Shown piece after piece: positions 12,811-64,000 of a stretch of 64,000 bases of DNA; position 1 is the stretch's first letter; every line of letters starts with the position of its first letter. Source of the stretch: an uncultured Lutibacter sp. (GTDB taxonomy: Bacteria > Bacteroidota > Bacteroidia > Flavobacteriales > Flavobacteriaceae); assembly GCF_947493565.1 (NCBI RefSeq), contig NZ_CANLRG010000001.1, positions 356,265-420,264 of the forward strand, read 5' to 3'. A program made the position numbers and the translations under genes. The notes under the pieces are model-generated. The model made no database searches. It was not told the DNA's origin and saw only the letters and a list, made by a program, of their open reading frames with translations.

Positions 12811-13923
12811 TTACGAATTTGACAATTTTAATTCCTTAAAATTTATATTATCCGCAGTTATAGTATTATAAGTGAAATAATTTGATAAATCTCCCTTTAT
12901 TTCGATGCATTTATAAATGTCAAATTTACCATTTATCACTTTGAATTTAAGCTGAATACCAATATCCACTCTTTTCTTTTTATTATTTTCGACTATTTCA
13001 ATATTTTTATAAATGATATCTAAAAACTTTTTGTCATTATTTGGAATTTTAAAATAAGGTTGATAGTTCTCAAATTTTTCAGACTTGGCAATAAAGTATA
13101 AACCTTGTAATATCGCATAAAAATTATACTTTCTTGTTATTTCTCTATCGTAATCATTTTTATAATGACCAGCTTCAATTAAAATAGTGTTATGTCCTAA
13201 TTTTTGAAAATTATCTCCTGTTGCAGTAGGATAAAATTCATCGGTGTACCTACCTATCTGGTTAGGAATGTATTTTTGAAGTAATTCATTCATGCTTACA
13301 ATAACACTCATAGTTTCTTTCCTTCCCTCTGTTAAAGTTCGCTCTTTATCTTCTGAAGGAGCTAAAAATGAAATGGTTGCAGGATTTTTGGTTCCTTCTA
13401 CATTAAAAATTGATCGTTGGTCATGTAAATTAAAACAAAATTTAGGGTTGAAATTATCTAAGGTATTCCTTAAAATTTTACTTTCCGTAGCTTTTAAAGC
13501 GACAGCATCCCTATTTAAATCAATATTTTCAGCATTTTCTCTTGTAAATTTAATGGCTCCATCAGGGTTTAGCATTACAATGAATTGTAAGGTACAGTTG
13601 TTAAGTATTTCACTTTTTATATGGTTAAACTGAACACTTGGGTTTGTTAAAAAATTAAAGAGGTCGAACAAAGCTTTGGTTCCAGTGCTTTCATTTCCAT
13701 GCATTTGCGACCAAGTAAGTATTTTTTTAGAACCTTTTCCAATGGTAAGTTTATAAATTGGAATATTATTGGTAGAGTATCCAATTACTTCTTTTTTTAA
13801 AATGGGTGCAACTTTTTTTATCAACGGCTCAATATCTTCAAATAAAATCCTTCTACCTTTTAAGCGTGATTCAAAATTAGAAGCGTACCAATTTTCTAAA
13901 TGTGCAATGTTTATTTCTTCCAT
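12811..13923 (-). CDS. M14-family zinc carboxypeptidase-like protein
   Basis: A 370-residue peptidase of the M14 fold. Zinc ligands His75 and Glu78 (MHGNESTG) and His167 (NLHDQR) are visible, as is a candidate catalytic Glu250 (ILIEAGHY). No signal peptide is evident, so it is probably cytoplasmic, unlike digestive carboxypeptidases. The C-terminal 80 residues are an additional beta-type segment. Two TTACANNTGTAA operators (13980-14015) lie between its start and the divergent CI-type repressor gene, so the repressor may control it. Confidence 0.85.
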   Translation of the reverse strand: MEEINIAHLENWYASNFESRLKGRRILFEDIEPLIKKVAPILKKEVIGYSTNNIPIYKLTIGKGSKKILTWSQMHGNESTGTKALFDLFNFLTNPSVQFNHIKSEILNNCTLQFIVMLNPDGAIKFTRENAENIDLNRDAVALKATESKILRNTLDNFNPKFCFNLHDQRSIFNVEGTKNPATISFLAPSEDKERTLTEGRKETMSVIVSMNELLQKYIPNQIGRYTDEFYPTATGDNFQKLGHNTILIEAGHYKNDYDREITRKYNFYAILQGLYFIAKSEKFENYQPYFKIPNNDKKFLDIIYKNIEIVENNKKKRVDIGIQLKFKVINGKFDIYKCIEIKGDLSNYFTYNTITADNINFKELKLSNS

Positions 13924-57611: not shown

Positions 57612-58799
57612 ATGAACAATTCTTCTGTTAAAAAAACTGTTATCCTTTTAAAAAAAGTTGTACATCGAAATGAGGTTCAATTAGTTCTTATTTTTGAGTT
57701 TGATTTAACGTTAAAAGATAAAATAAAGGAATTAAATGGGTATAAATGGAGTAAAACCTTACGAGGTTGGTATACCATATTTACGCCAAAAAATGTAGCA
57801 ATTTTAAAAGAAAAACTTAAAAATGTAGCAGATTTTAAACTACACACCTCTATTTACCAAACCATTACGGTAAAACCAAAAAGGCCACAAAGGAATATTT
57901 CTGCTAAAAACTTAGTTATTTTAAATTTATATATAAAGTATTTAAAAGGTAAACGTTATAGTGATAGTACCATTAAAACCTATGCAACTTTTATCGCTGA
58001 TTTTTTTGATTATTTAAAAGATACCGATTTAGTAACCATAACCAATAAACAGGTAGAATTATTTATTGAAGATGTGTTTGTACCTCGAAATTATAGTATC
58101 AGTTCTCAACGTCAATTTATCAGTGCTATTAAGTTATTTAAAGCCTTTTATCCTGAGTGTAACATAGAAGAAATTCAATTAAAAAGACCTAAACGAAGTA
58201 AATTATTACCTTTAGTATTAAGTAAGGAAGAAATTGTTGACTTATTACGCTGTACTAAAAATTTAAAGCACAGAGCCGCTTTGGCAATGATTTATTCAGC
58301 AGGATTGCGTATAAGTGAATTGCTTCATTTACAATTACATCATATTGATATAGATAGAAGACAAATTATTGTAAAAAACAGTAAAGGACGTAGAGATAGG
58401 AATGTAATTTTAGCTGAAAGTTTTATACCATTGCTATTAAATTATTTAAACAGTTACCAGCCTACCCTGTTTTTTATTGAAGGCAAGCCAGGAGAAAAAT
58501 ACAGTCCAGAAAGTGTTCGAAGTTTTTTAAAACGTTCATGTGAATATGCCAAAATTACCAAAAGAGTTACCCCACATACTTTACGGCATAGTTATGCTAC
58601 CCATTTATTAGAAAACGGTATTGATTTGCGGTACATTCAAGAACTACTTGGGCACGCAAAGCCCGAAACTACAATGATTTATACCCATGTAACAAAAAAA
58701 GATTTATTAAAAATTGAAAGTCCGCTAGATTTGGCAGTGAAAAATTTAAGCGAAAAATCATCCGCTGCCAATAAGTTAAGATTGTCTGATAATTATTAA
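57612..58799 (+). CDS. Tyrosine recombinase with integron-integrase-like C-terminus
   Basis: A 395-residue tyrosine recombinase with a complete active site: Arg233 (SAGLRISELL), Lys258 (NSKGRRDR), His322 and Arg325 (PHTLRHSYATHLL), His348 (ELLGHAKPETT) and nucleophile Tyr357 (MIYTHV). The SAM-like core-binding domain is at about 100-185. An extra N-terminal domain (about 1-90, with GYKWSKTLRGWYTIF) is seen in many Bacteroidota recombinases. The C-terminus TMIYTHV...IESPLD resembles IntI (TMIYTHV...RSPLD) more than XerC/D, but the IntI-specific insertion between Lys258 and His322 is absent. It is about 940 bp from the first cassette and is the natural candidate for moving the array, though that link is inferred. 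Confidence 0.9.
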   Translation: MNNSSVKKTVILLKKVVHRNEVQLVLIFEFDLTLKDKIKELNGYKWSKTLRGWYTIFTPKNVAILKEKLKNVADFKLHTSIYQTITVKPKRPQRNISAKNLVILNLYIKYLKGKRYSDSTIKTYATFIADFFDYLKDTDLVTITNKQVELFIEDVFVPRNYSISSQRQFISAIKLFKAFYPECNIEEIQLKRPKRSKLLPLVLSKEEIVDLLRCTKNLKHRAALAMIYSAGLRISELLHLQLHHIDIDRRQIIVKNSKGRRDRNVILAESFIPLLLNYLNSYQPTLFFIEGKPGEKYSPESVRSFLKRSCEYAKITKRVTPHTLRHSYATHLLENGIDLRYIQELLGHAKPETTMIYTHVTKKDLLKIESPLDLAVKNLSEKSSAANKLRLSDNY

Positions 58800-58805
58800 A
58801 AATAA

Positions 58806-59207
58806 TTACTTACTTCTACTTCCTTCTTTATAAGTAGTTATTCCCCTTTTGAGCCAACGTTTTAAAACAACTGAAGGTTGGAAATTTAGATGATATTTTT
58901 GGATATTACGCTTAGGTGTTAAATTAGCTGGATTAGGGTCAGCTTTACATTTAAACCCTATTTTAAACTTTCCAATATTTTCTAAATCAACAATTTTACC
59001 ATCTTCTAAATGAAATTGTAATTTTTCACCCAAAGCATACAGTACCATTTTTACATCAACTTTACTTAAAGTACACTCGTTACTAATTTGGTAACTTATT
59101 TGATCTAGATCAACAACACCAGTACTAACTGCCTGCATAATATATTGAGGGGCTTTATTATTAGCAATGGTATTGCTTCTTTTAGTAATTCGATAACGTA
59201 TAGGCAT
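58806..59207 (-). CDS. HU-like DNA-binding protein
   Basis: A 133-residue HU/IHF-superfamily protein of the Bacteroidota HU-like type. It has an N-terminal helical part (APQYIMQAVSTGVVDLDQIS), the beta-arm-like IVDLENIGKFKIGFKCK and a basic C-terminal tail. HU/IHF proteins bend DNA. Here the gene is tail to tail with the recombinase gene, six bases apart, and reads away from the cassette array. It might assist recombination or be an ordinary nucleoid protein. Confidence 0.8.
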   Translation of the reverse strand: MPIRYRITKRSNTIANNKAPQYIMQAVSTGVVDLDQISYQISNECTLSKVDVKMVLYALGEKLQFHLEDGKIVDLENIGKFKIGFKCKADPNPANLTPKRNIQKYHLNFQPSVVLKRWLKRGITTYKEGSRSK

Positions 59208-59741
59208 ACTATTTAGGTATTTTGTTAATAAAAAATAGCCATACTACTTTTAAACAAGTAGTATTTACTTTAACTTTGAATTCTCTAATTAAAAGTAAAC
59301 TTCACAGAATTACAAATTTATTGTACTATTTTTTTAAATATTTTGTAGTATTTTTATTAAATTAAACTAATATTTTTTATAATTTATACTAGTATTTTTA
59401 ATAAAAAACTCTTTAACTTTAACAAAGTTTTACCGCTAAAGTGACAAAAATAATACGTATAAATGACAAATTTACTATACACTAAATTATACTTTAACTA
59501 TGGTTTTTTTATAGTTATTTATAATTAAATTTATTTTACTTAGATTTTACTTTAGTTTTAATTAATCTATTCAATTATTTTTTTTAAATTTGATACAACA
59601 TATAAAAATTGCGTTTACACTTATAATATTACTAAAATTACCACAAAAAGTTTTGTTTTTTTAATTATTAAAAAGTAATAAAAACTACGGTTATCCGGAA
59701 ACTATAAGTTATAAACGTTAATAAATAGAATGATATAACAA
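59208..59741. promoter_or_regulatory. AT-rich 534-bp region before the first cassette, candidate attI-like zone
   Basis: No coding capacity. An inverted repeat ATACTACTT-TTAAAC-AAGTAGTAT (59241-59264) is followed by further copies of its TAGTATTT motif at 59346-59353 and 59390-59397, and a variant GTACTATTT at 59323-59331. A TAAATTTG box at 59585-59592 could be a -7 element reading into the array. These are candidate recombinase-binding arms and a cassette promoter. None is proven. Confidence 0.4.
59585..59592 (+). promoter_or_regulatory. Possible promoter reading into the cassette array
   Basis: TAAATTTG fits TAnnTTTG and points toward the cassettes, 150 bp before the first cassette border. 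No good -33 element; low confidence. Confidence 0.3.
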
Positions 59742-59755
59742 GTTGTGGGTAATGT
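59742..59755 (+). repeat. Start box of cassette A
   Basis: GTTGTGGGTAATGT. Complementary to the end box at 60891-60904 (ACACTACCCACAAC) at 13 of 14 positions; the only mispair is A against C at position 11. Confidence 0.75.
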
Positions 59756-59776
59756 AACCAAACCATATAGAAAGAA

Positions 59777-60889
59777 ATGAATGTAGAAAGTTTACTTAAT
59801 AAGATTAAGATATTTACAGAATTGGTAATTGACTCTGGATTTAAAAGAGATGTGATTGACTACAAACAATCAATAGCCCAAGCTCAAAACCAGAATTTAG
59901 TCTTTATGAAAGGACTTTCTGAAAGTATAAAAGAGAATCTGTTTTACTTTGAAAACAATTCCCTTGACAGCGAATTAAATAGTGTTCTAAGAGAGAATGA
60001 ACCATTTACGTCCTTAAACACATTGAAGGAATTGGAAGAATTGGATTCAGACAAAGAAATTGATGGTCAGCAATATTTTCAAAAATTCAATCAAATTCTA
60101 AATCGACTTCAAAAAGCAATACAAACAAACGAATCTGAACTAAATACGGTCAAAACCACTTTTGACAAATATGTTTCAGAAGAAGATGACTTTGACGATG
60201 ATGGAGAACAAGCAGTAATGTCTCTTATATTTAAAGACCTTGAATCCACAGGAAGTTTAAAGGAGTTTTCGAGAGTATTGCATCGATGGAATAGAACTTT
60301 ACTTATTTACCATACTCTATTAAAATCTGAATCACCAAAGGAAATTTCGCTTGTTGAAATTCAGAATGGTTCAATAGATGTAATCTTTAATATAGATTTT
60401 GATGTTGCCATAGATTTGACCGAATTAATCAAAACAGGATTAAAGGTTTATGGAGCATATTTATTGTATAAATCCAAAACTGCTAAAGAAATTATTGCCT
60501 CATATATGGGTAATAAAAAACTAATTGCAACGGAAAAAGAAAGAGAAAAATTAATGTTAGATAACATTAAGGATTCGATAAAATTAAAAGCTCTTGAACA
60601 GCACAAGGAAAATTTAAAATCTGATTCGCCACCAACAAAAGCTGGTGCAACTAAAAAAGCAGATGAAGTTGCGAAAGTTATTACTGACCATATCGTAAAA
60701 GGCAATGAGGTCAAGTTATTGACACCACCTGAACCAGAAGAAGAAGACAAACCAGATATGTCGACCGAATTAAGAACAGAAACTGCGAATGTGAGGGAAA
60801 GGTGGAAAAAACTGGACGAAAAAGAAAAGCAATTACTGCTTGACAAATACACGATTAAAGAGGAAGAAGAGGAAAAAAAAGATAAATAA
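59777..60889 (+). CDS. Cassette A gene, 370-residue protein of unknown function
   Basis: A soluble-looking protein with no signal peptide. It has an N-terminal helical region (1-180), then a mixed alpha/beta core with EISLVEIQNGSIDVIFNIDF followed by a hydrophobic, possibly amphipathic or membrane-associated helix (LIKTGLKVYGAYLLYKSK, about 225-245). The charged, low-complexity C-terminal third ends in a KEEEEEKKDK tail. I do not recognise the family. It is the only gene of cassette A, with its ATG 35 bp after the cassette border and its stop two bases before the end box. The codon mix is less extreme in A/T than that of the housekeeping neighbours in places, which fits transfer. Confidence 0.75.
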   Translation: MNVESLLNKIKIFTELVIDSGFKRDVIDYKQSIAQAQNQNLVFMKGLSESIKENLFYFENNSLDSELNSVLRENEPFTSLNTLKELEELDSDKEIDGQQYFQKFNQILNRLQKAIQTNESELNTVKTTFDKYVSEEDDFDDDGEQAVMSLIFKDLESTGSLKEFSRVLHRWNRTLLIYHTLLKSESPKEISLVEIQNGSIDVIFNIDFDVAIDLTELIKTGLKVYGAYLLYKSKTAKEIIASYMGNKKLIATEKEREKLMLDNIKDSIKLKALEQHKENLKSDSPPTKAGATKKADEVAKVITDHIVKGNEVKLLTPPEPEEEDKPDMSTELRTETANVRERWKKLDEKEKQLLLDKYTIKEEEEEKKDK

Positions 60890-60890
60890 A

Positions 60891-61024
60891 ACACTACCCA
60901 CAACAATGGCTATAAGTAATTGCTTGCTCTCGCCTACTTCTGAAAATCCTCGCGGATTTTCAGTCTGGTGCGTACTTGCAAAGTTAAGTGCTAAACCACG
61001 CAACTACTCATAGCCGAGACCGTT
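60891..61024 (+). repeat. Cassette-end site 1 (attC-like, type I)
   Basis: 134 bp from the end box of cassette A to ACCGTT. The outer stem pairs GGCTATAAGTAATTGC (60908-60923) with GCAACTACTCATAGCC (61000-61015): 14 pairs plus A/C at stem positions 7 and 12. The central perfect hairpin is GAAAATCC-TCGC-GGATTTTC (60942-60961). On the bottom strand both A/C mispairs become T/G wobbles. Confidence 0.78.
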
Positions 61025-61035
61025 AGCATACATTT
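61022..61035 (+). repeat. Start box of cassette B
   Basis: GTTAGCATACATTT, complementary to the end box at 61838-61851 (AAACGTATGCTAAC) except A against C at position 11. Confidence 0.75.
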
Positions 61036-61059
61036 ACCACTCAAAATCTGAATTAAACA

Positions 61060-61836
61060 ATGGAAGTCATTTTAGGTCTATTTTTTTTCTTAATATGTTT
61101 AAGCTCACTCGTTATAACTTTTGTGGCAATAATTCAAATAGCCAGCAATGATTTTAAAGAATCTAAAATACAATGGATTATAATTTCAATGATTGCCTTT
61201 ATCGGACCAATATTATGGCTGACTAAAGGTCGTAAACTCATAATTAAAAATGGCGAAACCGAAAGAAATGACAATAAAGAAAAAACAAGCCTGACTGAAC
61301 ATTACACTCAACTAATAAAGGATATTGGAACACCATTAAAAATCCTGACTCTAATAGCATTCGCTCTTATTTTTTATGGATATTTAGCCAGAGCATTTGA
61401 TATTTTTTTCTTTTGGGAAAGTAAATCAATCGGATTTGGATTATTACTTATAGTAATTGCGAAATTTTTGCTTGACGATATCAATTTAAGGCGTGAAAAT
61501 AAAATGCATCGTATTGTTTTCTATTTAGTATTCGGAATTCTATGCTTATCTATTTTCATAAAAGGCATAATTGCTATTATCATACCAAATTCTGACGCTT
61601 ACAATACAGCTACTGAACTTTTAAAAACAGATTCTGAATTAATAGCCGAAGTTGGAGGAATTAGCTCTTTTTCTTATTTGCCTTCTGGCAGTATGGGAAC
61701 ACATAAAGACAAATATGGAACAACTGGTAATGCAAATTTGACTTTAATAATAAAAGGAAATAAAAAATATATTGAGAAGAATGTAGTCTTGGTAAAAGAA
61801 TTAGAAGAAGATTGGAAAATAATATCTCTGAATTAA
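61060..61836 (+). CDS. Cassette B gene, membrane protein with Coa1-like C-terminal domain
   Basis: A 258-residue protein. The first two helices (about 1-22 and 38-58) with IQWIIISMIAFIGPILWLTKGRK resemble the PLDc_N two-helix module (IGPILWLTKGRK shown). Three more hydrophobic segments follow (about 95-112, 118-140, 150-173). The C-terminal soluble domain (about 185-258) contains IAEVGGISSFSYLPSGSMG, GNANLTLIIKG and LEEDWKIISLN, like the Coa1 (cytochrome oxidase assembly factor 1-like) small domain. The function in bacteria is unknown. It lies alone in cassette B, ATG 38 bp after the border, stop just before the end box. Confidence 0.72.
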   Translation: MEVILGLFFFLICLSSLVITFVAIIQIASNDFKESKIQWIIISMIAFIGPILWLTKGRKLIIKNGETERNDNKEKTSLTEHYTQLIKDIGTPLKILTLIAFALIFYGYLARAFDIFFFWESKSIGFGLLLIVIAKFLLDDINLRRENKMHRIVFYLVFGILCLSIFIKGIIAIIIPNSDAYNTATELLKTDSELIAEVGGISSFSYLPSGSMGTHKDKYGTTGNANLTLIIKGNKKYIEKNVVLVKELEEDWKIISLN

Positions 61837-61837
61837 A

Positions 61838-61972
61838 AAACGTATGCTAACACCGTGTATAATCAATTGCTAGTTCTAGCTTACTTACGAATATTCCTGC
61901 GGAATATTCTATCTGTGTTTTATTTGCTAAATTAGTTGCTTAAACACGCAACTAATCATACACAAAACCGTT
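61838..61972 (+). repeat. Cassette-end site 2 (attC-like, type I)
   Basis: 135 bp. The outer stem pairs GTGTATAATCAATTGC (61855-61870) with GCAACTAATCATACAC (61948-61963): 13 pairs plus A/C at positions 7 and 12 and C/A at 10. The central hairpin GAATATTCC-TGC-GGAATATTC (61889-61909) has the same place but a different, still perfectly paired sequence compared with sites 1 and 3. Ends ACCGTT. Confidence 0.78.
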
Positions 61973-61983
61973 AGGGTTAATAC
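61970..61983 (+). repeat. Start box of cassette C
   Basis: GTTAGGGTTAATAC, complementary to the end box at 63297-63310 (GTACTAACCCTAAC) except A against C at position 11. Confidence 0.75.
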
Positions 61984-62011
61984 CAGTGAAAAACCGAAAA
62001 AAAATATAAAT

Positions 62012-62575
62012 ATGGGAAAAACATCAGATTCGTTTAAAAGACAAATTGGAAGAGATGCTGGAAAAGTAGTGTCGAATTTTCTATTCAAAGATAAACACGC
62101 AACACCTTTTAGAAGAGCGAATAGTTTAGAAAAAAAACAATCGAAAAATCAACAAATAGCACATAAATTAAAGGAAAAACAAAACTTGAACGCAATTGAC
62201 AATGCTGTGATTGGAGCGATTGACCAAGTAATTTCTCTTCAAATACCACAAGATGAAAATCAAATAGTAAATATATTGAATGGTTTTGATGTTCAATTAA
62301 AGGCAAGTAAATGGCAGGAATCTGATGGAAATGAAAACGAAGAAGAAATAAAAATACGTAATAAATATCCAGATGCTGTTTTAGAAAAGTATAAACAATG
62401 TGTACAAGAATTAGAGTTCATTAACGCAAATCAAAAAAGAATTGAGTTCTATAAAAAGAAATTAAAAAAACACAAAAGAATTCGTTTTATATCTAAAAAT
62501 AAAACTTACGTTATAATTTTTGGTCTTCTTATAGCAATCTTTATTATAGGTGGTATTGCATCAATATTTGAATAA
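62012..62575 (+). CDS. Cassette C gene 1, tail-anchored protein of unknown function
   Basis: A 187-residue, basic, helical protein without signal peptide. A single C-terminal transmembrane helix (about 163-184, YVIIFGLLIAIFIIGGIASIF) is preceded by a lysine-rich stretch (YKKKLKKHKRIRF), the layout of a tail-anchored or C-terminally anchored protein. I do not recognise the family. It is nine bases upstream of the second gene, so the cassette carries a two-gene unit, unusual for cassettes, which normally hold one gene. Confidence 0.7.
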   Translation: MGKTSDSFKRQIGRDAGKVVSNFLFKDKHATPFRRANSLEKKQSKNQQIAHKLKEKQNLNAIDNAVIGAIDQVISLQIPQDENQIVNILNGFDVQLKASKWQESDGNENEEEIKIRNKYPDAVLEKYKQCVQELEFINANQKRIEFYKKKLKKHKRIRFISKNKTYVIIFGLLIAIFIIGGIASIFE

Positions 62576-62584
62576 ACCAAAAGT

Positions 62585-63325
62585 ATGTATTGTAAACATT
62601 TCGAGACATTTGTAAATAATTGTATTATAGAAAAACAATTCGTTGGAACAGGAAATCCTAATTCCAACATTTTATTTGTAGGTAAAGAATCAGCAATTAA
62701 TCAAAATGATATAATCTCAATGAATTGGTATTTATCAAATGCCGACGAATGGAAAACTCGTATTTTAAATAAAAAATCAGACACCTACGAATATTTAGTT
62801 GATGAAAATCATAAACTACGTAAAAATTGGGGAAAAAATACTTGGAGTAAATATCAAAAATTAACTGACGAAATTTATCAAACAAAAACACAACCGTATT
62901 ATGTGGATTTTTTAAAAAATGTTTTTACAACAGAAATGAATGATTCACCTTCTGAAAAAACAGCTTTTGCGAATAAAGATAGTATTAATGACAGAAAACT
63001 TCTTTTTAAAAATTCGTCTTTTATTCAAAGTTTTAAAGTTGTTGTTTTAGCTTGTTCGGATTATTTCACAAATAACGATTCAATTAGAGAAATTGATGAT
63101 ACTTTTGGAGTTAGCTATATTGGAGATAAAAAAGGAAAATATTATTACTCAAAAGGTAATTGGTTTTTTATTCACAAAAATTTAGAGAAGTCGAAAATTG
63201 TAATTCACACAAGACAATTAAGCACTAATGTTAATAACCAATTACTTCAAGATATGGGAAATGTAATTAATGAATTTATAAACGGAACAAAGAAAAGTAC
63301 TAACCCTAACACCGTGTATAATTAA
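62585..63325 (+). CDS. Cassette C gene 2, possible uracil-DNA-glycosylase-fold protein
   Basis: A 246-residue soluble protein. Near the N-terminus GNPNSNILFVGKESA resembles the first motif of UDG-superfamily proteins (G-x-P-x-x-x-ImfVGe-x-P). SFKVVVLACSDYF could be the following central strand, and KIVIHTRQLS the late His motif. The match is remote; no activity is claimed. The last residues (NPNTVYN) are encoded inside the cassette-end site, and the stop lies in its outer stem, so the protein tail depends on the recombination site. Confidence 0.6.
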   Translation: MYCKHFETFVNNCIIEKQFVGTGNPNSNILFVGKESAINQNDIISMNWYLSNADEWKTRILNKKSDTYEYLVDENHKLRKNWGKNTWSKYQKLTDEIYQTKTQPYYVDFLKNVFTTEMNDSPSEKTAFANKDSINDRKLLFKNSSFIQSFKVVVLACSDYFTNNDSIREIDDTFGVSYIGDKKGKYYYSKGNWFFIHKNLEKSKIVIHTRQLSTNVNNQLLQDMGNVINEFINGTKKSTNPNTVYN

Positions 63326-63430
63326 TGGCTAGTTCTTGCCTACTTACGAAAATCCTCGCGGATTTTCTATTCGGTTTTTATTTGCTAAATTAGGTGTTTA
63401 AACACGCCACTAATCATACACAAAACCGTT
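63297..63430 (+). repeat. Cassette-end site 3 (attC-like, type I)
   Basis: 134 bp. The outer stem pairs GTGTATAATTAATGGC (63314-63329) with GCCACTAATCATACAC (63406-63421): 14 pairs plus A/C at positions 7 and 12. Relative to site 2, T-A at stem position 14 is G-C here, a compensatory change. Central hairpin GAAAATCC-TCGC-GGATTTTC (63348-63367). Ends ACCGTT. Confidence 0.78.
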
Positions 63431-63441
63431 GTAAATAATAG
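63428..63441 (+). repeat. Start box of cassette D
   Basis: GTTGTAAATAATAG, complementary to the end box at 63873-63886 (CTACTATTTACAAC) except A against C at position 11. Confidence 0.72.
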
Positions 63442-63455
63442 TAAAAAAAAAAGAT

Positions 63456-63758
63456 ATGAAAAAATTAGAAATTAAAATACCTGTAATTCACATTATTCTG
63501 ATAATCGTATTTATGATAATCGTAAATATGATAGTTGAAAAAGAAACTCAAGGACAGAGTGAAATTTATGGAATCATTTACAGTTTGAGTTTTTTTATCA
63601 CGCACGATTTTTATTCCATTATTCTAGGACTAATATTGATTATTCCATTACCTCTTTTAATTCTTTCAATTATTAGAAAAAAAAAAGATTTAATTAAAGG
63701 TTTTTCAGTTTCAACGTTGATTAGTATTATCCTAATAATTATTATAAGTAATTCTTGA
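63456..63758 (+). CDS. Cassette D gene, small membrane protein
   Basis: A 100-residue protein with three hydrophobic segments (about 9-27, 38-68, 78-98) and little else. No family recognised. It starts 28 bp after the cassette border behind an A-rich leader. The 114 bp between its stop and the end box hold no further gene. It is a small, unknown cassette product. Confidence 0.65.
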   Translation: MKKLEIKIPVIHIILIIVFMIIVNMIVEKETQGQSEIYGIIYSLSFFITHDFYSIILGLILIIPLPLLILSIIRKKKDLIKGFSVSTLISIILIIIISNS

Positions 63759-63872
63759 TTTATTAAAATTAGATTAATCATCTGAATTGACTTTCTTTTC
63801 AGATTTTGTTACTCAAAAAAGAATTACCCAAATTTGATTAAAAAATAGAGGAATATAAAACTGATTGAAAAA

Positions 63873-64000
63873 CTACTATTTACAACAATTCATATAATTT
63901 ATGCTTAAATTTGAACTAGTACAAACGACAAACATTCAACTAACGATTTGCTACAACCGAAAAATCTCCGATTTTCCAGTCGCACAAATCTTATAAAAGC
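63873..64000 (+). repeat. Cassette-end site 4 (attC-like, type II), cut by the window end
   Basis: End box CTACTATTTACAAC, then a site closely similar to the solitary site at 45850-45981 and unlike sites 1-3. Central hairpin GAAAAATC-TCC-GATTTTC (63959-63976), flanked by GATTTG / CAAATC. By comparison with the solitary site the ACCGTT end should fall within about 10 bp beyond the window. Confidence 0.7.

Follow-up and report, generated by a model that had tools for sequence, protein, structure and literature searches.

An integron-like cassette array beside a tyrosine recombinase without the IntI insert in Flavobacteriaceae

How could genes be lined up as cassettes in a genome in which no IntI is found at an E value of 1e-40? 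This question is raised by a 64,000-nucleotide stretch of DNA (here called the window) of an uncultured Lutibacter sp. (contig NZ_CANLRG010000001.1, positions 356,265 to 420,264), in which a tyrosine recombinase gene is followed by successive units with mutually complementary ends. The initial annotation had proposed a Bacteroidota cassette system with its own site grammar, and both matched ends for each cassette and a separate family of sites were borne out. Judging from sequence comparisons, we consider it probable (about 0.85) that the units form an integron-like array behind an attI-like junction and a recombinase without the IntI-specific insert, which likely excises and inserts them as cassettes at G^TT. 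The system functions like an integron, yet it does not strictly qualify as one, since it lacks the IntI insert by which integrons are defined.

Matched unit ends and structure of the sites

The window terminates within the array. Its part of the array comprises one attI-like junction and four palindromic sites, of which three are complete and the last is truncated by the contig end, rather than five sites of one kind as first described. In all four units, the two ends are exact reverse complements over 10 of 10 bases (GTTGTGGGTA at 59742, GTTAGCATAC at 61022, GTTAGGGTTA at 61970 and GTTGTAAATA at 63428), just as had been reported. With GTT and AAC fixed, seven bases are free in each 10-base end.

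The window is the terminal part of contig C1 of a 3.1-Mb genome in 37 contigs, and a pattern search found that the array resumes on contigs C12, C13, C14 and C16. C14 and C16 start within sites and the window's contig stops within one; the assembler probably split the array at its repeats. A heuristic site scan of this genome gave 71 matches in nine stretches, of which 55 were retained and 16 discarded by eye for lack of a CGTT end, a length outside 118 to 124 or the wrong strand relative to the array. The covariance model trained on the 55 retained sites (R1) identified 62 sites in six array loci on five contigs, with a single orientation per contig; 55 of these match by construction, and three are truncated by contig ends.

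The view that ends match within a unit and not across sites also held outside the window. In the array loci of the window's genome, at least five contiguous bases beyond GTT matched within the unit in 41 of 49 adjacent site pairs; between both ends of a single site, such a match was seen in 1 of 55. Similarly, ends were matched within 213 of 314 units and within 16 of 357 sites in 40 further array loci, where 357 sites lay on the majority strand of their locus, 4 on the opposite strand and 2 in shuffled sequence. Over 29 of these 40 loci, R1 counted 433 sites, 300 of them listed. Classical arrays of the phylum likewise show R''/R' complementarity within cassettes, but those sites were selected by matched ends.

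The sites share a plan in which NNNNNNNAAC and a spacer of 3 bases precede an arm of 16 bases; after a variable middle come the second arm and a 6-base spacer ending in C, followed by GTTRNNNN. The distance from AAC to GTT is 118 to 124 bases in the retained sites. Stem covariation reached 0.424, compared to 0.109 for shuffled and at most 0.086 for slid alignments, and 14 of the 19 stem pairs have changed on both sides. The attC-like palindromic structure is kept under selection.

CGTT is invariant across the 55 aligned sites, and exchange within CGTT would leave identical edges. This would suit a scheme in which the same recombinase moves double-stranded circles in an Xer-like manner, with CGTT as the overlap and the hairpin serving to position binding boxes or to block transcription. 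We regard this as unlikely. In the circle, the variable bases at each end, at most seven, are complementary to their own counterpart alone, some 120 bases away, and the covariation of the arm pairs indicates that structure is kept and not sequence.

For comparison, we used 39 classical attC sites adjoining true IntI genes of the phylum, selected by matched ends (3 matches were dropped). The initial annotation had stressed that the boxes do not fit RYYYAAC/GTTRRRY. This misfit is real (GTTRRRY fits 4 and RYYYAAC 6 of the 55 new sites), but it is not diagnostic, since GTTRRRY fits 7 of the 39 classical sites. The stem itself differs. On the top strand, A.C mispairs are conserved at columns 20/124 in 50 of 55 sites and at columns 25/118 in all 55, corresponding to G.T on the bottom strand. 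As judged by alignment only, the new sites lack an extrahelical bulged stem base and have the A.C mispairs in its place; in an alignment of 30 classical sites from the phylum, column 20, the position of the first mispair, is unpaired.

The recombinase and the attI-like junction

The window recombinase is intact and combines a Phage_integrase and SAM_4 core with an extra N-terminal domain of about 90 amino acids. Its top NCBIfam score was with the XerA-type model NF040815 (214.2 bits; the cut-off of 220 was not reached), while the IntI model TIGR02249 gave 199.4 bits against a cut-off of 265, in an alignment split in two pieces. The IntI-specific insert of about 40 residues (patch III/I2) was found in none of 30 aligned cassette integrases and in all 30 aligned IntI; this alignment was made without L098, which has a stop, and L183, which has a fused frame. 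The insert region measures 46 to 51 residues in 38 cassette integrases compared to 88 in 11 IntI. Six residues, which we take to be the catalytic ones, are invariant over 24 aligned rows including that of the window.

In a tree calculated with the insert columns removed, support of 100/100 was obtained for an IntI clade, for a clade of the sampled Xer proteins and for the grouping of the insert-less integrases with IntI against Xer. One long Xer branch was flagged by the program, and the tree settles no branching order for the insert-less integrases. Among PDB chains, the recombinase core is nearest to the XerA type by sequence and fold rank. This proximity favors Xer-like exchange of double-stranded circles, as does the absence of the insert that halts the second strand exchange in IntI (PMC7790495, cited here, like the other papers, from excerpts).

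An ordinary integron with a decayed or diverged IntI and divergent attC sites would explain why IntI1 aligns to the window recombinase with 32% identity across 77% of the query, why both groups join against Xer and why the sites run parallel to attC in their anatomy. We nevertheless consider it improbable. The short insert region, the TIGR02249 score below the cut-off and the separate IntI clade all argue against it, and the two kinds of site models barely cross-detect. Indeed, R2, a classical attC model built here from 30 sites adjoining phylum IntI genes, gave one weak match (E value of 0.07) in 19 new-type array loci, and R1 gave no match in 13 IntI loci, a set that omits L216, an IntI locus with three R1 sites.

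We located the start of the first unit in 24 genomes solely by its match to the R'' box of the first site. The junction fell at ATATAA..GTT in 15 of them, at a distance past the integrase of 33 to 54 bases in 10 genomes and 119 to 2028 in 5; it is 945 bases in the window. The remaining nine had no downstream site (2 genomes) or a best match elsewhere (7 genomes), and in one of the latter (G118) the attI motif was present on later inspection. Aligning 33 motif-selected junctions, which include one record twice (as G047 and as L256), yielded ATATAACNAG^TT. Furthermore, a TATAA..GTT-type motif lies within 400 bases in 39 of the first 46 named loci. In most aligned cases attI has GTT in common with the sites, but not CGTT, which again speaks against CGTT as an Xer-like overlap.

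The -7 element of Bacteroidetes promoters is TANNTTTG (PMC6847099). As a candidate part of a cassette promoter (Pc) at attI, the -7 element TAnnTTTG was present in 11 of 35 attI, compared to 0.4 expected in random windows; the window's own attI does not contain it. The gene for an HU-like protein that separates integrase and attI in the window (Table 1) would have no space in the 10 relatives with attI 33 to 54 bases past the integrase.

Contig C13 of the window's genome (L037:6230-9092) has a further attI-like motif, GAATATAACAAG^TT, at the head of another array stretch. No such integrase is present within 1,300 bases upstream, and the recombinase found about 3.6 kb upstream is of a different kind. 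The first unit of this stretch encodes a DNA methyltransferase and a product that by eye resembles an endonuclease.

Table 1. Features of the array and its surroundings, in positions of the window
Feature	Position	Strand	Remarks
Cassette integrase (tyrosine recombinase, 395 aa)	57612..58799	+	Upstream of the array, co-oriented
HU-like small DNA-binding protein gene	58806..59207	-	Between integrase and attI
attI-like junction, core GATATAACAAG^TT	59690..59744	+	Putative cut between 59742 and 59743
Cassette 1	59743..61022	+	ORF 59777-60889, 370 aa, no Pfam family
attC-like site 1	60895..61031	+	AAC 60902 to GTT 61024
Cassette 2	61023..61970	+	ORF 61060-61836, 258 aa, hydrophobic, weak Pfam matches only; probably a membrane protein
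attC-like site 2	61842..61979	+	AAC 61849 to GTT 61972
Cassette 3	61971..63428	+	ORFs 62012-62575 and 62585-63325
attC-like site 3	63301..63437	+	AAC 63308 to GTT 63430
Cassette 4, truncated by contig end	63429..64000	+	ORF 63456-63758
attC-like site 4, truncated by contig end	63877..64000	+	R1 model positions 1-128 of 140

Distribution, contents and probable movement of the cassettes

The initial annotation had suggested a covariance-model search of Bacteroidota genomes, and a search of this kind mostly gave the same-orientation arrays with matched ends that it had asked about. At an E value threshold of 0.001, with at most 21 candidates scored per family genome and at most 9 per phylum genome, R1 detected sites in 131 of the 149 genomes sampled from the window's family and in 107 of 345 from the phylum. 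The integrase was found at an E value of 1e-30 in 104 of the 149 family genomes, namely in 99 of 131 with sites compared to 5 of 18 without (Fisher p 1e-4; tallied by eye, with 25 no-match genomes unlisted by name).

The best 80 of 588 loci from named genomes were read; these genomes include Lutibacter, Winogradskyella, Maribacter, Polaribacter, Gillisia, Flavobacterium, Algoriphagus and Pedobacter. Downstream of the integrase and on its strand, these 80 loci have 124 sites, compared to 2 upstream and 12 on the opposite strand; 56 of 84 units have matched ends. A downstream site was present in 40 of the 80 loci, and many contigs stop shortly past the integrase. Chryseobacterium sp. SNU WT5 also has a plasmid with an integrase of the same kind and three R1 sites (E values of 2.5e-5 to 4.6e-4). 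In G184 and G192, two genomes that belong to another class, the insert-less integrase adjoins matched arrays but faces away from them, like classical intI.

In the window's genome, 45 of 50 units contain an open reading frame (ORF) of at least 60 amino acids, and the longest ORF is co-oriented in 40 of these 45. Pfam searches with 42 of the 45 cassette proteins gave diverse matches with one or two members per family, for example, Hsp20, NUDIX, cation efflux, beta-lactamase-fold hydrolase, GmrSD and ParE (among the first 25 of 49 families). PADLOC gave single-member matches of the Orf5, HEC-06 and SspE kind (among the first 25 of 47).

With one genome per species in the sample, mobility was read from near-identical duplicates within genomes, defined as same-genome pairs of at least 300 bases and at least 98% identity (n = 53). 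In 5 of the 53 pairs, from 4 genomes and with 99.6 to 100% identity, all four edges lie within 6 bases of a cut. In G100 and G118, the attI-proximal cassette is 100% identical to an interior one, the attI cuts of both having been set by hand from the motif. A like duplication extends over 800 bases in a Polaribacter locus (L294), where the site upstream of the second copy was not detected. One cassette occurs three times in the window's genome with 93 to 96% identity; in two of the three pairs both ends coincide with the cut, and the third pair extends by one site. In alignments between different genomes, 17 of the 39 ends are no more than 12 bases from a cut, compared to 1.3% of random positions, and cassettes common to different genera have their edges at cuts.

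Several observations weigh against an insert-less recombinase moving these cassettes. Among the near-identical pairs, 48 of 53 are not edged throughout by detected cuts, some of them being repeated genes and some lying at sites overlooked by the scan. The bottom strand folds more stably in 51 of 55 sites, but folding energy is a poor marker of strand preference; we gave it no weight because just 17 of the 39 classical attC of the phylum show it. An insert-less recombinase is, moreover, expected to risk a second strand exchange (PMC7790495). In addition, 32 of 131 site-bearing family genomes have no integrase match at an E value of 1e-30, a classical IntI above the cut-off also occurs in at least 24 of the 67 genomes with sites from outside the window's class, and the three R1 sites of L216 lie 4 to 7 kb from its IntI gene. 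In such IntI-holding genomes outside the window's class, IntI might act on R1-type sites.

The integrase-less arrays and the co-occurring IntI genes also fit dispersed palindromic repeats that are moved by homologous recombination, a Y1 transposase or IntI in trans, the recombinase being there by coincidence. We consider this very improbable. Single orientation, matched unit ends, edges at the cut and an attI motif recurring past the integrase in many genera argue against it, as does the distribution of IntI: in a sample of 296 phylum genomes, 84 have IntI above the cut-off, most of them outside the window's class and none among genomes of the window's family, and the window's own genome has none at an E value of 1e-40. 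This frequency is higher than expected from the literature, where integrons are described as rare in Bacteroidetes, the phylum as sampled here being wider than that of the published analysis. There, Salinibacter had the only complete integron that IntegronFinder 2.0 reported for Bacteroidetes proper (PMC9024848).

Known systems, possible mechanism and variant sites

Like chromosomal integrons (IntI, attI and attC; IntegronFinder models), the system has an integrase adjoining attI, a one-way array with matched R' and R'' in each cassette, palindromic sites with two spacers, one short and one long, and an insertion edge at G^TT. Unlike theirs, its integrase has an extra N-terminal domain, lacks the IntI insert and is co-oriented with the array in the family. 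Furthermore, the R box of its sites reads GTTRNNNN, and an A.C mispair contrasts with the unpaired base of the phylum's classical sites. The real distinction is the recombinase without the IntI insert together with the mispair replacing the unpaired base.

XerA/XerD-type recombinases (NF040815, 4a8e and 5hxy) share the core fold, the catalytic residues and the lack of an insert, but the window recombinase stays under the NF040815 cut-off, groups with IntI and not with the sampled Xer, and is tied to cassette arrays. In CTX phage integration by XerC, an insert-less recombinase likewise uses a folded single-strand hairpin, but this is a phage dif mimic and, in the excerpted account, no cassettes are involved (PMC7790495). 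The integrons of Archaea similarly show arrays beyond the usual hosts, but the archaeal IntIs described in that excerpt retain the patch III domain (PMC9668308). No prior account of a system such as the present one was found in the open-licence PMC literature by titles and abstract openings, with preprints outside the scope.

If the adjacent recombinase is the cassette enzyme, it would collect cassettes the way integrons collect antibiotic-resistance genes. A cassette would be captured as a circle, with its folded bottom strand as the substrate; a single strand would be exchanged at G^TT, and replication would resolve the product. The mispairs, G.T on that strand, and the extra N-terminal domain may stand in for the extrahelical base and the I2 helix of IntI.

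At slightly less than even odds, we hypothesize that this system represents a second, phylum-wide integron lineage with folded single-strand capture in the absence of an I2 helix. It could be either a pre-insert stage ancestral to IntI or an independent solution via stem mispairs and an XPB/HARP-like N-terminal domain. According to a stated view, acquisition of the I2 helix gave IntI single-strand recombination (PMC7790495), and the present group, which is related to IntI and has cassettes and hairpin sites in the absence of an insert, offers a direct test of it. If our reading is correct, much of the phylum carries cassette arrays, some of them reaching 60 to 80 or more sites, whose integrase would escape searches demanding the IntI-specific domain, which the IntI detection procedure of PMC9668308 does, and a classical attC model, judged by R2, would mostly overlook such sites.

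Sites of other types were also seen. The Chryseobacterium plasmid (L173; NZ_CP041688.1) has a 74-base hairpin element (AAC to GTT) three times, at 13220, 15315 and 17696, which sits among the cassettes alongside the longer R1-type sites. In L342 (G184:C33:380000-387000), several successive units open with an identical GTTGAAGAAGA, and R1 sites alternate with a site that is about 91 bases long; this genome also has a classical IntI elsewhere. In G479 (L335; G479:C6:80556-85822), two matched attC-like sites of yet another sequence type lie downstream of an insert-less integrase, which the tree places with IntI. In G113 (L133-L136), an array has many sites about 440 bases apart, a repeated short unit, and these sites have lower R1 scores.

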